64,000 nt of DNA from assembly GCF_000956505.1 (NCBI RefSeq), contig NZ_JYIX01000039.1, forward strand, positions 62,001-126,000, read 5' to 3'. The notes below the pieces were generated by a model, which was not told where the DNA came from, ran no database searches, and was given only the letters and a program-made list of their open reading frames with translations. Both the position numbers and the translations under genes were made by a program. Every line of letters starts with the position of its first letter. Within the stretch, counting starts at the first letter, position 1. Shown here in pieces: positions 16,673 through 56,909 of this stretch. Source of the DNA: Microbacterium azadirachtae. Its GTDB lineage: Bacteria; Actinomycetota; Actinomycetes; Actinomycetales; Microbacteriaceae.

Positions 16673-16757
16673 GTGCACGGGTTGTTGTCGGGTGCACGGG
16701 TTGTTGGCGTCGAGTTCCGGTGCGTTCGGCAGGATCCGGTGTTCTCGGCGGAATCCG
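16673..16757 (+). repeat. 85-bp direct repeat, copy 1
   Basis: Aligns without gaps to 17937-18021 at roughly 80% identity; both contain TCGGCAGGATCC. The two copies have the same orientation and flank the AbiEi-like gene. Confidence 0.75.
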
Positions 16758-16906
16758 ATCCGGGGCAGTGACAGGTGTTCTCGGCGGGATCCGATGTCGA
16801 GCCAGACTGCGGCGCGATCGTCCTGCACGGAAGGCCGCGCAGGGGAGCTTCGCACCGGTTCCGTGATCGCTGCTCGGCCGCCCTGCACGAGTGTTCACGA
16901 TAAGGC

Positions 16907-17905
16907 ATGGCACTGATCTCCGAGGCGGTCGTCCCGCACCATGAGCCGATCCTTGAGCATCTCGTGCGCTCGCGTGAGGATCTGATCCTGAACGGCTGGA
17001 CCGACCGGCGGATCGCCGCCGCGGTGCAGGCAGGCGTGCTGTTCCACATCCGTCGCGGCTGGTACATCGACGCGGACGAACGCTCCGGTCTCTGGCCGGA
17101 GGAGCAGCACAGGGCGCACGTGATCGCCGTGGCGCGGGACGGTCGGGGCGGCGCCATCGCGTCGCACACGTCGGCGGCGGTGCTGTGGCGACTTCCGCTG
17201 TATCGCATCCGATGCGCCCGTGTGCATCTCACGACGAGTCGGGCGCGACGGATATCGAGCGCACCGGACGTCATCAGGCACGCGACGTCCATCGACGCCG
17301 AGGACGTGGTCGACATCGACGGGATCCGGTGCACATCGCTTGCTCGGACGGTCTTCGACCTCATCGGCACCCTGCCGCTCGAGGCCGCGGTGGCGCTCGC
17401 CGACGCCGCGGAACGACAGATGGCGCTGCGGCTGAGGGAGTGGGACGTCGAAGCCGTGACCTCCTGGCGACTCGGTCTGTCTCGACGGCTCGGCGAGGCC
17501 GGCGGGATGCGCGGGATCCGGCAGGCGCGATGGGTCTTCGCCTTCGCCGATGGGCGGGCGGAGTTGCCGGGGGAGAGCGTCAGCAGACTGCAGCTGCGAC
17601 GGCTGGGATATGCGCCCCCTGCACTGCAGGTCCCGATCCCTGGTCCGGATGGCCGCATGTACTACGTCGATTTCGGGATGGATGCGGTCGGCTCGTTCGG
17701 TGAGTTCGACGGGAAGGGCAAGTATCTCGATGAAGCGATGCGCTCCGGCCGCTCGATCGAGCAGGTGATCTACGACGAGAAGCGGCGCGAGGACTGGATC
17801 CGTGGCAGGACGCAACAGCGATTCGCCCGGTGGGAGTCCGAGCACATCGGCACGTCGCGGGCGCTCGGGAGGCGACTCGAATCCTTCGGGATCAGCCCGC
17901 CGTGA
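16907..17905 (+). CDS. AbiEi-like winged-helix protein with nuclease-like C-terminus
   Basis: A 332-residue protein. The N-terminal 150 residues match the AbiEi antitoxin layout: a winged helix with AVQAGVLFHIRRGWYI, then SHTSAAVLWRLPL and a segment ending ARTVFDLIGTLPLEAAVALAD. The C-terminus has DFGMDAVGSFGEFDGKGKY, which looks like the Asp, Glu-x-(Asp/Lys) core of Vsr/DUF559 endonuclease folds. AbiEi normally neutralises the nucleotidyltransferase toxin AbiEii, but none is adjacent. The gene is alone, flanked by 85-bp direct repeats. A defence or regulatory role is possible but unproven. Confidence 0.75.
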   Translation: MALISEAVVPHHEPILEHLVRSREDLILNGWTDRRIAAAVQAGVLFHIRRGWYIDADERSGLWPEEQHRAHVIAVARDGRGGAIASHTSAAVLWRLPLYRIRCARVHLTTSRARRISSAPDVIRHATSIDAEDVVDIDGIRCTSLARTVFDLIGTLPLEAAVALADAAERQMALRLREWDVEAVTSWRLGLSRRLGEAGGMRGIRQARWVFAFADGRAELPGESVSRLQLRRLGYAPPALQVPIPGPDGRMYYVDFGMDAVGSFGEFDGKGKYLDEAMRSGRSIEQVIYDEKRREDWIRGRTQQRFARWESEHIGTSRALGRRLESFGISPP

Positions 17906-17936: not shown

Positions 17937-18021
17937 CTGCACGGGTAATTGCCGGGCGCACCGCTTGTTGACGCGAAGTTCCCGTGCGCTCGGCAGGATC
18001 CCGTGTGCTCGGCGAGATCCT
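17937..18021 (+). repeat. 85-bp direct repeat, copy 2
   Basis: Partner of 16673-16757 in the same orientation, roughly 80% identical without gaps. It lies between the AbiEi-like gene and the rplJ promoter. Confidence 0.75.
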
Positions 18022-53234: not shown

Positions 53235-54503
53235 ATGAGCAGCGCATCCGGATCCGCCCGTCAGCGGATGCTGCGCGGTGCGCGGTTCGCCCTGCACCTC
53301 ATCACGGTGGTGCTGGTCGTCGTCACCACGGCGCGTGCGGGCATCGAGGGCGAGCTGCTCCCGGTTCTGCTCGTCGCCGCCGTGTACCTCGCCTGGTACG
53401 GCGCCGGTGCCGGGTTCGCGCACAAGCGCGCCGCGGTCTGGTGGATGCTGGGGCTGCTCGCGATCTGGATCGGCATGCTCGCCCTGTCCGCGGAATTCGT
53501 CTGGCTCGCGTTCCCGCTGCTGCTGCTCGCCGGGCACGTGCTGCGCCTGCCGTGGTCCTTCGCGTTCATGATCGTGGTGCTCGCGGCCTCGATCGTCGCA
53601 CCGATGCTGCACCCGGGCGCGGTGCAGCCGGGGACGCTGCTCGCACACCTGATCGGACCCCTCGTCGGCGGTGGCTTCGCCTTCGCGGTGTCGCTGGGCT
53701 ACGACGCGATGCTGCGCGACGCGGCCGAGAGGGAGCGCCTCATCGACTCGATGCTGCGTGCCCAGCACGAAGCGGAGCGCCTGCACGACGAGCTCGCCGC
53801 GAGCCAGCGCGAGGCCGGAGCGACGCGGGAGCGCACCCGGCTCGCCCGGGACCTGCACGACACGATCGCCCAGGAGCTCAGCACGATCGTCATGCTCGCC
53901 CGCCTGGAGCCGTCGGCCGGCGCGGACGGCGTCGCGGCGGATCCGGCGGCGCCTGTCGTCGGGGTGCGCCAGGATCGCACCGCGCAGATCGAGCAGCTCG
54001 CGCAGCACTCGCTCACCGAGCTGCGCCGCATCGTCGCGGCCCTCGCTCCCGCCGACCTCGACGAGTCCGCCCTCGCGGCGGCCCTGGCCCGCATGCTCGA
54101 CGCCCTGCGCGACGAGTCCGGCATCAGCGGCGCCCTGCAGGTGGATCCGGACCTCCCCGCCCTGTCGACGCCGGTGGAGGTCGCCCTGCTGAGGGTCGCC
54201 CAATCCGCGCTCGCCAATGTGCGCCAGCACGCGAAGGCGCAGACCGTCCAGGTCGCGTTGACGTCCGGCGGCGGATCCGTGCGCCTGCGGCTCGAGGACG
54301 ACGGCGTCGGGTTCGACCAGGCCGTGCGCCCCTCCGACGCGTCCTACGGCCTCGCCGCGATGCGCTCGCGACTGCGGGAGGGCGGCGGAGAACTCACGAT
54401 CCGATCCGCGCCGGGCGCCGGGACCACGATCGAGGCGATGCTGCCGCTCGGGGCGGGCACCGGTCTTGCCGCGGGCAGCGGCGCGGACGGGGGAGCGGTA
54501 TGA
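53235..54503 (+). CDS. Sensor histidine kinase (NarL/DesK-type)
   Basis: A 422-residue kinase. Five to six hydrophobic helices in residues 15-155 form the sensor. The HisKA_3 phosphoacceptor is H208 in ARDLHDTIAQE. An ATP-binding domain has RVAQSALANVRQHAKA (N box) and LEDDGVGFD and GLAAMRSRL (G boxes). No extracellular domain, so it probably senses a membrane signal. A GAGAAT box lies 6 bases before the ATG. The response regulator follows with ATGA overlap. Confidence 0.93.
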   Translation: MSSASGSARQRMLRGARFALHLITVVLVVVTTARAGIEGELLPVLLVAAVYLAWYGAGAGFAHKRAAVWWMLGLLAIWIGMLALSAEFVWLAFPLLLLAGHVLRLPWSFAFMIVVLAASIVAPMLHPGAVQPGTLLAHLIGPLVGGGFAFAVSLGYDAMLRDAAERERLIDSMLRAQHEAERLHDELAASQREAGATRERTRLARDLHDTIAQELSTIVMLARLEPSAGADGVAADPAAPVVGVRQDRTAQIEQLAQHSLTELRRIVAALAPADLDESALAAALARMLDALRDESGISGALQVDPDLPALSTPVEVALLRVAQSALANVRQHAKAQTVQVALTSGGGSVRLRLEDDGVGFDQAVRPSDASYGLAAMRSRLREGGGELTIRSAPGAGTTIEAMLPLGAGTGLAAGSGADGGAV

Positions 54504-55117
54504 GCGTTCGGCTGATCATCGTCGACGACCACCCGATCGTGCGTGCAGGGATCCGCGCGGTCGTCGAGGCGCGGGGCTTCGATGTCCTCGCCGAGGTCGG
54601 CACCGGAGAGGAGGCCGTCGAGGCTGCCCGCCAGCTGCATCCCGACGTGGTGCTCTGCGACCTGCGTCTCGGCGAGGGCATGGACGGCGTCGCCACGACC
54701 GCGGCGCTGCGAGCGCTCCCTGCGCCGCCCGCGGTGCTGATCCTCACCACCTTCGACCACGATGCCCAGATCGTCCGCGCCGTGGAGGCGGGCGCCGCCG
54801 GATACCTGCTCAAGGAGGTCGGCGTCGAGGTCATCTCCCGCGCGATCGTGGATGCGGCGGCCGGATCCGCCGTTCCCACCCCGGGCGGGGACGAACGCCT
54901 CGTGGCCGCCCTGCGCGCGCCACGGGTCGATCTCACCGCGCGTGAGCAGGAGGTGCTGGCACTCGTGGCGGAGGGGCTCAGCAACCGCGAGATCGCGGTG
55001 CGCCTGTTCGTCACGGAGGCCACGGTCAAGACGCATATCGTGCACCTGCTCGACAAGCTCGGAGCGGAGAGTCGCACCGGCGCCGTCTCCGAGGCCCGCC
55101 GCCGCGGCCTGCTCTGA
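54500..55117 (+). CDS. NarL/LuxR-type response regulator
   Basis: A 205-residue regulator, partner of the overlapping kinase gene. The receiver has D9/D10 and the phosphoacceptor D54 in VVLCDLRLGEG, with the Lys of YLLKEVGVE. The C-terminal LuxR helix-turn-helix includes LTAREQEVLALVAEGLSN, then EIAVRLFVTEATVKTHI. The target genes are not identifiable here. It precedes a 505-bp repeat-rich gap. Confidence 0.95.
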   Translation: MSVRLIIVDDHPIVRAGIRAVVEARGFDVLAEVGTGEEAVEAARQLHPDVVLCDLRLGEGMDGVATTAALRALPAPPAVLILTTFDHDAQIVRAVEAGAAGYLLKEVGVEVISRAIVDAAAGSAVPTPGGDERLVAALRAPRVDLTAREQEVLALVAEGLSNREIAVRLFVTEATVKTHIVHLLDKLGAESRTGAVSEARRRGLL

Positions 55118-55160
55118 CCGCGCGAGCCGGCCCTTTCGCTCCCACCCCGGGATCCACGCG

Positions 55161-55253
55161 CGTTTTGGGGCGCACTGTTCCGTTTTGGGGCGCGCCACCC
55201 CCAGTGAACGCGTCGTCGGGCGCCCCAAACGGCAGGACTGCGCCCCAAACCGG
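55161..55253. repeat. TTTTGGGGCGC palindrome, module A
   Basis: Two direct GTTTTGGGGCGC words about 20 bases apart are mirrored by two GCGCCCCAAAC-type words, so the module folds into one long imperfect hairpin. Confidence 0.75.
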
Positions 55254-55284
55254 GCCCAACCTCAGCACCGTGGATCCGCGCCCC

Positions 55285-55360
55285 TTCCGGATCCGACCTC
55301 CCCACGCCGGATCCGACCTCCCCGCACCGGATCCGCTTCCCACGCCGGATCCGACCTTCG
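55285..55360 (+). repeat. Tandem CCGGATCCGACCTCCCC array
   Basis: Four CCGGATCCG units begin at 55287, 55307, 55327 and 55345 (period 20, 20, 18). The second and first are nearly identical. Confidence 0.8.
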
Positions 55361-55385
55361 CCGCGGGCCTGCCCCGCTCCACTCC

Positions 55386-55476
55386 CGGTTTGGGGCGTGC
55401 CGTGTCGGTTTGGGGCGCACCATCCCCGGCCACGGTGTCGTGGCGCGCCCCGAAAGGCCGAAACTCGCCCCAAAAC
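55386..55476. repeat. TTTGGGGCGC palindrome, module B
   Basis: A related copy of module A: two GGTTTGGGGCG words, then inverted CGCGCCCCGAAA and CTCGCCCCAAAA words, with the same spacing plan. Confidence 0.75.
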
Positions 55477-55567
55477 GGCCCGGTCGCGCCATACCCGGCG
55501 AGCACGGCGAACGGCGTCAGCACCTGCCGCCGCCGTCACATACCGGATCCGGCATGGAGTGCGCTCG

Positions 55568-55573
55568 TAGAAT
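55568..55573 (+). promoter_or_regulatory. -10 box (TAGAAT) of lysC
   Basis: TAGAAT about 50 bases before the GTG start; no convincing -35. Confidence 0.4.
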
Positions 55574-55622
55574 GTGCGGTGGTGCGCCGCCTCCGGCGCC
55601 CGGCATCCCCCAGGAGTGATCC

Positions 55623-56909
55623 GTGGCCCTCATCGTGCAGAAGTACGGCGGCTCGTCCGTCGCCGACGCAGAGAGCATCAAGCGCGTCGCGAAGCGCATC
55701 GTCGACACGCGCCGCGCCGGGCACGACGTCGTCGTGGCCGTGAGCGCGATGGGCGACACCACGGACGAGCTGCTCGACCTCGCGGCCCAGGTCGCGCCGA
55801 TCCCCGCGCCGCGCGAGCTCGACATGCTGCTCTCCAGCGGAGAGCGCATCTCGATGGCGCTGCTCGCGATGGCGATCCACTCGATGGGCTTCGACGCGCG
55901 CTCCTTCACCGGTCCGCAGGCGGGGATGCGCACCGACAGCCGGCACGGATCCGCGCGCATCGTCGAGGTCACCCCGACGCGCTTGCGCGAGGCGCTCGAC
56001 GAGGGCGCGATCGTCATCGTCGCCGGCTTCCAGGGCATCAACGACGACACGCAGGACATCACGACCCTCGGCCGCGGCGGATCCGACACCACCGCGGTGG
56101 CCCTCGCCGCCGCCCTCGACGCCGACGTCTGCGAGATCTACAGTGACGTCGACGGCATCTACACGGCGGATCCGCGCGTCGTCCCGCTCGCGCACAAGCT
56201 CTCGCATGTGTCGAGCGAGGAGATGCTCGAACTCGCCGCGAACGGTGCCAAGGTGCTGTACATCCGCGCCGTCGAGTATGCGCGCCGGCACGGCGTCCTG
56301 ATCCACGCCCGGTCGAGCTTCACGTCGACCGAGGGCACCTACGTTCTGGGCGAGGGCATGAAGAACCCCCGCGAATCCGAGGGAGCAGTCATGGAAGAGC
56401 CGATCGTCGCCGGTGTCGCCACCGACCTCAGCCAGGCCAAGGTCACCGTCGCGGGCGTTCCCGACGTGCCGGGGAAGGCCGCGGAGATCTTCAAGATCGT
56501 CGCCAAGTCCGGCGCGAACGTCGACATGATCGTGCAGAACGTCTCGGCCGCGTCCACGGGGCGCACCGACATCTCCTTCACGCTGCCGAAGTCCGACGCC
56601 TCCGCCGCGCTCAAGGCGCTCGCCGCAGAGCAGGCCGATGTGGGCTTCGAGAGCCTCCTGCACGACGACCAGATCGGGAAGCTCTCGGTCGTGGGCGCGG
56701 GCATGCGCACGCACTCCGGCGTCTCCGCGATCCTCTTCGAGGCGCTGTCGACCTCGGGCGTGAACCTGGAGATGATCTCGACCTCCGAGATCCGGATCTC
56801 CGTCGTCGTGCGCGGCGACGAGCTCGCCGAGGCCGCGCGCGTCGTGCACGCCGCGTACGGCCTGGACGGCGAGGTCGAGGCCGTCGTCGCCGCCGGCACC
56901 GGTCGCTGA
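55623..56909 (+). CDS. lysC: Aspartate kinase (alpha subunit, with internal beta start)
   Basis: A 428-residue kinase phosphorylating aspartate, first step to lysine, threonine and methionine. The N-terminal kinase domain starts [20 protein letters not shown] and has [19 protein letters not shown] and [13 protein letters not shown]. Two ACT domains follow ([17 protein letters not shown] and [19 protein letters not shown]), the site of lysine/threonine feedback. An internal ATG at 56391 gives a 172-residue beta subunit. asd follows 170 bases later. Confidence 0.97.
56391..56909 (+). other. Predicted beta subunit of aspartate kinase (internal start)
   Basis: ATG at codon 257 is preceded by GAGGGA, 7 bases upstream, in the same frame as lysC. 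The product would be 172 residues covering both ACT domains. Corynebacterium lysC is known to yield alpha and beta subunits this way, with a beta of the same size. Confidence 0.7.

Follow-up and report, generated by a model that had tools for sequence, protein, structure and literature searches.

Dispersed four-word palindromic elements at gene ends in Microbacterium azadirachtae and a candidate partner gene bracketed by their words

The stretch of Microbacterium azadirachtae DNA analyzed here (the window, 64,000 nucleotides of a 4.24 Mb genome in 40 contigs) carries two palindromic modules, A and B, between a response regulator gene and a gene whose product we take to be aspartate kinase, lysC (Table 1). 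Each module consists of four copies of an approximately 11-bp word, TTTTGGGGCGC, two direct and two inverted, and the start-to-start spacing of the words is 20-37-20 in both, bearing out the original prediction that two real palindromes of shared plan lie in this gap. The first word of module A starts 46 bp past the response regulator stop codon, and lysC starts 148 bp downstream of module B. The count of TTTGGGGCGC is weak by itself, with nine occurrences in the window at up to one mismatch, eight of them inside the modules, against a chance expectation of 4.2 (nine was reached in 2 of 100 shuffles); the case is carried by the geometry and by further copies elsewhere. Between the modules lie four CCGGATCCG units at 20/20/18 spacing, an array that is present as described. 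This 9-mer occurs 38 times in the whole window against 4.1 expected, and the units are a local low-complexity run of a common motif, outside the element; a G020 match to the region, low-complexity and apparently coding, was discarded.

Table 1. Features of the lysC locus, the window paralog and the candidate partner gene. Positions are those of the window, except for the candidate partner gene, which is given by locus record
Feature	Position	Strand	Remarks
Response regulator gene	54500-55117	+	name from the original prediction, made from sequence alone
Module A, four-word element	55161-55256	.	words 55163-55173 and 55183-55193 direct, 55220-55230 and 55240-55250 inverted
Four CCGGATCCG units	55287-55353	+	between modules A and B; starts 55287, 55307, 55327, 55345
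Module B, four-word element	55386-55477	.	words 55388-55398, 55408-55418, 55445-55455, 55465-55475
lysC (aspartate kinase)	55623-56909	+	name from the original prediction
Second four-word element, left of paralog	16673-16744	.	word GYGCACGGG, 19-25-19; two intact and two decayed words
Paralog of candidate partner	16904-17905	+	46% identity; AbiEi-like N-terminus, PD-(D/E)XK-like C-terminus
Second four-word element, right of paralog	17937-18008	.	19-25-19, 4/36 mismatches
Candidate partner gene (318 residues)	L018:2309-3265	-	neighbors pgm and a GNAT acetyltransferase gene

At the lysC locus of the sister species G318 a single element is present, which aligns to both A and B and has a loop matching that of module A, and the CCGGATCCG array is missing. 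The proposed composite of A, array and B therefore does not hold together as one structure, and modules A and B are best read, from this comparison, as a local duplication. The intergenic stretch is short and element-free in G272, G063, L103, L105, L107, L108 and L109, leaving the locus empty in all seven other readable relatives (L106 is cut short). The modules have no match in phage or plasmid sequences and the proteins have no phage or viral-contig relatives; a phage or plasmid origin was rejected. A separate palindrome, CATACCGGATCCGGCATG, lies just upstream of lysC at 55539-55556, is found exact or near-exact in close relatives lacking modules A and B, and seems to belong to the lysC promoter region.

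Four-word elements form a dispersed, rigidly spaced family in the home genome. A genome-wide BLAST search, proposed as a check on the prediction, returned 95 element matches on both strands, so that the block is not unique but has further copies. A sequence-only model built from 58 copies gave 126 matches, equivalent to 63 elements each matched on both strands; the best 150 first-look candidates were scored, and the genome thus holds at least 63 elements, which group in 41 clusters. The element is 88 bp long with fixed internal spacing; 61 elements were read with a scan that presumes this spacing, and a word list compiled free of it places one copy off by one base. The first word is missing in 4 of the 61 (L026, both elements of L034, and L042). 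Elements of the same locus differ at 6.1 of 26 loop positions (30 pairs) against 12.8 of 26 for elements of different loci (1800 pairs), as after local duplication, and only five neighboring cluster pairs lie within 3 kb of each other. Two elements lie in frame inside a NAD-kinase-like gene in the home genome and one in G318. In G063 (L245) this spot of the gene is occupied by a repeat of other sequence, GAGACGAAACGC ... GTCCCTGAGCCTGTCGAAGGG, which may represent a further family of this kind.

Model matches were found in at least 87 of 366 Microbacterium genomes, the home genome included (strict filters, best 11 candidates per genome). An exact direct word pair is present in 72 of the 366, with 294 lacking this strict pattern, and a reversed control gave 8 matches in 5 genomes. 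Word spacing is near-constant within each genome among the matches listed: 19 in many, 20 in the home genome, G064, G118, G190, G325, G327 and G328, and both 19 and 20 in G063. Successive gaps in relatives read 20-20-...-19-20 or 19-19-19, with up to eight direct words running, and the center, from GGGGCG to CGCCCC, spans 28 bases in the home lineage versus 9 in the others read, a difference of 19 bp. One word is thereby used in three Microbacterium geometries (20 bp with a 28-base center, 20 with 9, and 19 with 9). Among 398 Microbacteriaceae genomes the two-word pattern occurs in six, comprising the home genome, two of eight other Microbacterium and three of 389 from other genera; these last three were set aside, their spacing or sequence looking like other repeats. 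No description of the family was found in the open-licence literature.

The elements favor the 3' ends of genes. With genes called by a codon-usage script, 39 clusters of the home genome (61 of the 63 elements) fall between convergent genes in 19 cases, tandem genes in 12 and divergent genes in four, with three inside an ORF and one undecided; the convergent share, 19 of 39, compares with 8 of 55 gene junctions in the window (p 0.0004). In relatives, where loci were chosen from the listed matches with dense ones preferred, the 42 clusters reduce to 41 distinct ones (L260 is the same as L269), of which 13 are convergent, 25 tandem, two divergent and one in an ORF. Convergent and divergent placements thus stand at 32:6 overall, and between tandem genes the element is closer to the stop codon in 9 of 12 home cases and 21 of 25 in relatives. 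No shared function was apparent among 30 neighboring proteins, and no clear bias toward a chromosome region was seen by eye on four complete chromosomes.

The element locus that recurs most often between the home genome and distant species contains pgm, a gene for a 318-residue protein and a GNAT gene. Homologs of the protein are encoded at the pgm/GNAT locus of the home genome, G318, G272, G063, G143, G325, G328, G327, G012, G043 and G238, and in 11 of these 11 species the gene has words on either side. This count comes from stretches chosen for the elements in them when the gene had yet to be recognized, in some cases for a close spacing of two clusters, so that element-free copies of the gene would go unseen. 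The 11 Microbacterium cases share one pgm/GNAT neighborhood and are non-independent; the surrounding gene order and orientation vary among them. The gene is bracketed in all eight genomes with element lists (the home genome, G318, G272, G063, G143, G325, G327 and G328), and among the matches listed the top-scoring element of the genome adjoins it in G272, G238 and G012. At the tadA/UPRT locus (L023 in the home genome; L054, L083 and L096 in three species) elements recur and the bracketed gene is absent from the fetched stretch.

The N-terminus of the candidate partner protein is matched by 10 PADLOC AbiEi models at E up to 0.1, the best at 1e-16 over residues 31-150. In the C-terminus D239, E252, D254 and K258 are invariant in 12 of 12 sequences; this D...ExD...K pattern, together with a weak homolog annotated as DUF559 (E 0.004, itself unbracketed), suggests a PD-(D/E)XK nuclease. 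Searches of Pfam and NCBIfam gave no credible match for the protein, and the best hit of a PDB profile search, phage Mtd at E of about 0.8, was dismissed as not credible. No AbiEii nucleotidyltransferase toxin lies next to the gene in the home genome, its neighbors being pgm and the GNAT gene. The Y1 transposase domain (PF01797, Y1_Tnp) has no match in the home genome, with 5 of 14 control genomes positive, and a RAYT partner was rejected because the domain is missing from that genome.

The window itself contains a paralog of this gene, beside which no GTTYGGGGCG array was found and which stands between two elements built on a second word, GYGCACGGG, derived from the left one (Table 1). The 19-25-19 arrangement of this word was also found at L017:3922 in the home genome, at the same locus in G318 (L217:2268/2287), and at L225:1495 in G272. 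At spacing 25 GYGCACGGG gave six matches with 3, 4, 4, 5, 6 and 9 mismatches of 36, and 1.48 Mb contained none for any of six scrambled words. The matches of GYGCACGGG at other spacings number 16 and are weaker, with 7-9 mismatches of 36. A single-sequence structure model of the paralog (mean pLDDT 44.5) was too poor to use. Furthermore, Tsukamurella tyrosinosolvens, a member of another order, has four homologs, two of which (L283 and L284) are bracketed by words of their own, CGCTGCCG and GTGGGGGA, in a lattice with a period of about 19 bp; the other two (L285 and L286) show no bracketing and are kept in every count. Within 100 kb around both bracketed genes, CGCTGCCG forms a perfect array of four words apart from the gene (L288:4857-4916) as well as a weak array, GTGGGGGA forms one six-word array (L288:4429-4612), and scrambled controls (20 trials each) gave 0-2 and 0-1 clusters, respectively. 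The numbers of arrays are thus small, and the better argument lies in the perfect geometry. Both good arrays lie downstream of rpoC. The L288 record (NZ_LR134465.1), labelled plasmid 23, is probably chromosomal, since it carries rpoB, rpoC and ribosomal protein genes.

Bracketing was scored where the two 350-bp flanks of a gene each contained the same 9-mer in a pair at a distance of 19 or 20 bp. Fourteen of 16 family genes are positive, compared with 1 of 251 control genes (0 of 106 in Tsukamurella, 0 of 92 in G272 and 1 of 53 other genes of the window). Nine genes, all of the family, reach a score of 2. The window paralog has a score of 1, owed to a 9-mer other than GYGCACGGG, and one control gene likewise reaches 1. 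These results bear on the possibility that the elements are bound by an unrelated protein of the host, of a nucleoid-associated or terminator-like kind, and that the 318-residue gene merely sits in an old, conserved element locus. Selection on the words (see below) and placement at 3' ends require no enzyme, and the tadA/UPRT locus recurs in three other species with no such gene in the fetched stretch. A chance locus, however, would not be expected to have a paralog and two distant Tsukamurella homologs each bracketed by different words, and we regard the host-protein explanation as unlikely.

Could the elements instead be hairpins of an RNA? Compared with 200 shuffles, both strands of module A and the plus strand of module B fold better than all (z-scores -3.6, -3.5 and -3.2), as is expected of palindromes. 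Strong folding and 3'-end placement would suit a structured RNA family whose hairpins in 3' untranslated regions stabilize or terminate transcripts from both sides, one of the suggestions of the original prediction. No Rfam family matched positions 54900-55700 at E up to 1. The compensatory changes by which the prediction proposed to check each fold are missing in the home species: across 34 of the 58 elements, with the window represented twice and every other locus once, the covariation excess of spacer, loop and word all falls inside the permutation range. The two halves of the element mirror each other in consensus only, and a maintained stem in the home species is not supported by these comparisons. 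Among short-center relatives, a position beside the inner word co-varies in a first set of 49 pairs, from which some neighboring duplicates were omitted by eye (p 0.004 for 21 pairs, 0.006 for 28), but this signal is gone in an independent second set of 38 of 42 elements (p 1.0 for 14 pairs, 0.37 for 24); a T/C position within the inner word leans toward pairing in both sets (p 0.03, 0.04, 0.07 and 0.10). The relatives' signal is thus weak and partly repeated. In these relatives the elements may have a hairpin role, but pairing is not what fixes the word sequence, which is kept beyond the needs of pairing, and an array at L263 (G325) consists of five words, all direct. Taken with the eight consecutive direct words at L265 (G328), this array shows the unit to be a single word set on a lattice of 19 or 20 bp, as for a protein covering about two turns of double-stranded DNA per site. 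We therefore consider an RNA family improbable. Of the three functions originally suggested, a predicted protein-binding array is the best supported, given the rigid spacing, the retention of the words, the symmetry that lacks covariation and the tandem lattices of the same word in relatives.

Comparison of elements between species indicates that the words are under selection. Over 46 pairs of home and G318 elements, which reuse three elements (L013:2261, L019:1984 and L198:2263), words differ at 105 of 1840 positions (5.7%), spacers at 284 of 1012 (28.1%) and loops at 301 of 1196 (25.2%). Without three pairs of doubtful orthology (L009:2283, L028:2032 and L028:2192), the figures are 88 of 1720 (5.1%), 253 of 946 (26.7%) and 254 of 1118 (22.7%). 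Words, spacers and loops differ by 9.8%, 31.2% and 27.4% in 16 pairs with G272, and by 12.5%, 44.7% and 48.1% in six pairs with G063. Word conservation is about five times that of the bases between words, a contrast possibly inflated by the recognition of elements through their words (elements were accepted with up to 14 mismatches of 44 and averaged 2.3 of 40). As word and spacer bases alternate within one element, these differences point to selection on the words rather than to a low local mutation rate. In 16 trios the ratio of word changes to other changes is 0.22 on the home branch, 0.16 on that of G318 and 0.40 on that of G272, which is the longest, and constraint on the words looks weaker in G272. 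This genome (loci L221-L234) has about a third of the home matches, among the matches listed, and the frame of its bracketed gene is open.

Most of the loci compared are inherited by descent. When counterparts were sought among stretches fetched around elements, from the matches listed, an element-bearing syntenic stretch was found in G318 for 32 of 35 home loci, and a home counterpart exists for 14 of 14 loci fetched from G272 and 6 of 8 from G063; the alignment ends before the element at home L022 (G318) and home L036 (G063). Empty sites at lysC and L016 differ from filled ones by more than the element, and no clean target-site duplication was seen. The suggestion of a non-autonomous mobile element is therefore upheld in part: the elements are dispersed, vary in presence between species and have copies inside genes, but most of the compared loci descend from a common ancestor and no target duplication was seen. 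That they are neutral MITE or REP remnants with no present role, as the dispersal of copies, the seven empty lysC loci and the in-frame copies in the NAD-kinase-like gene might suggest, is very improbable, because in neutral copies the words would decay at the rate of the spacers, which is not the case here, and nearly all home loci have an element-bearing counterpart in G318.

The four-word elements share features with several known repeats. MITE and ERIC-type repeats have a similar size range, a palindromic plan and an intergenic dispersal; four-word elements differ from them in having selected words, a rigid lattice and no target duplication that could be seen. Mycobacterial MIRU minisatellites occupy some 40 loci, are partly tandem, and lie between genes or in frame, resembling the four-word elements in number of loci, partial tandem arrangement and placement. 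To our knowledge, MIRUs have no four-word dyad plan and no partner gene. A closer parallel is the REP/RAYT system. By the account of one survey, REPs are dispersed palindromic repeats, found mostly after genes, between convergent or same-strand ORFs and in some cases within genes, and RAYT genes are flanked by REPs or other inverted repeats (PMC3733652). Four-word elements are likewise dispersed and palindromic, lie after genes and between convergent ORFs, and are in some cases intragenic. They are longer, however, at about 88 bp compared with 20-40 bp for REPs, and column counts of 61 elements reveal no terminal GTAG/CGTC tag. Head-to-tail lattices, described in that survey as absent, rare or negligible for REPs (Di Nocera et al. 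2013, PMC3733652), do occur in the four-word family, in relatives. The enzyme would also differ: unlike a RAYT, the candidate is AbiEi-like and PD-(D/E)XK-like, in a genome without a Y1 transposase. AbiEi proteins are described as binding two 23-bp inverted repeats as monomers, with four repeats in a row for Rv2827c (PMC7319586). Site recognition of this type would suit a four-word element, and the candidate protein resembles AbiEi in its N-terminus. It departs from AbiE systems in that no AbiEii toxin is adjacent, its C-terminus is nuclease-like and its sites are scattered over the chromosome.

Most simply, these observations would be explained by a repeat and an enzyme paired as REP and RAYT are, the enzyme being a different one. 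On balance we think it probable that the elements and the gene form such a repeat-plus-enzyme system, with the protein of the bracketed gene as the best candidate reader of the words. Each word would be read as double-stranded DNA by a sequence-specific protein, presumably this AbiEi-like, PD-(D/E)XK-like product. Together with its bracketing elements the gene would make up an autonomous unit, of which the scattered elements would be passive copies, a relation like that of RAYT to REP with a different enzyme and a different site. The protein may have moved the elements, whose copies would settle and persist just past stop codons. That each copy is under selection where it stands speaks against a purely selfish repeat, and the positions of the elements suggest a function at gene ends, where a bound array would most likely form a boundary or roadblock as a transcription unit ends. 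The chances seem even that this is one case of an undescribed actinobacterial repeat system, in which each lineage of AbiEi-like/PD-(D/E)XK-like genes is flanked by arrays of a word specific to it, repeated on a 19-20-bp lattice, and seeds the chromosome with dozens of such arrays at gene ends. The further word families, namely the second Microbacterium word with its own paralog and the two Tsukamurella words with their own homologs, are consistent with such a system.

If this reading is correct, bacteria have a second, unrelated solution to the task of REP and RAYT, in which a gene with AbiEi-like and nuclease-like parts maintains and disperses its own site as arrays at gene ends. A role would be assigned to a group of proteins with no credible Pfam or NCBIfam match, and a class of Microbacterium repeats would be explained. 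The function of these repeats would, moreover, be open to experiment, as the word, a candidate protein and naturally element-free relatives are all at hand. Two kinds of locus in relatives may be recorded here. Near the bracketed gene of G325 an IS256-type (Mutator) transposase gene lies between two elements (L263:2900-4168). In G328 an array of 35 words with up to one mismatch, mostly 20 bp apart (L265:1423-2235), sits in a gene cluster resembling one for aromatic degradation, and its likely counterparts by gene sizes in G325 (L264) and G327 (L267) also carry arrays.
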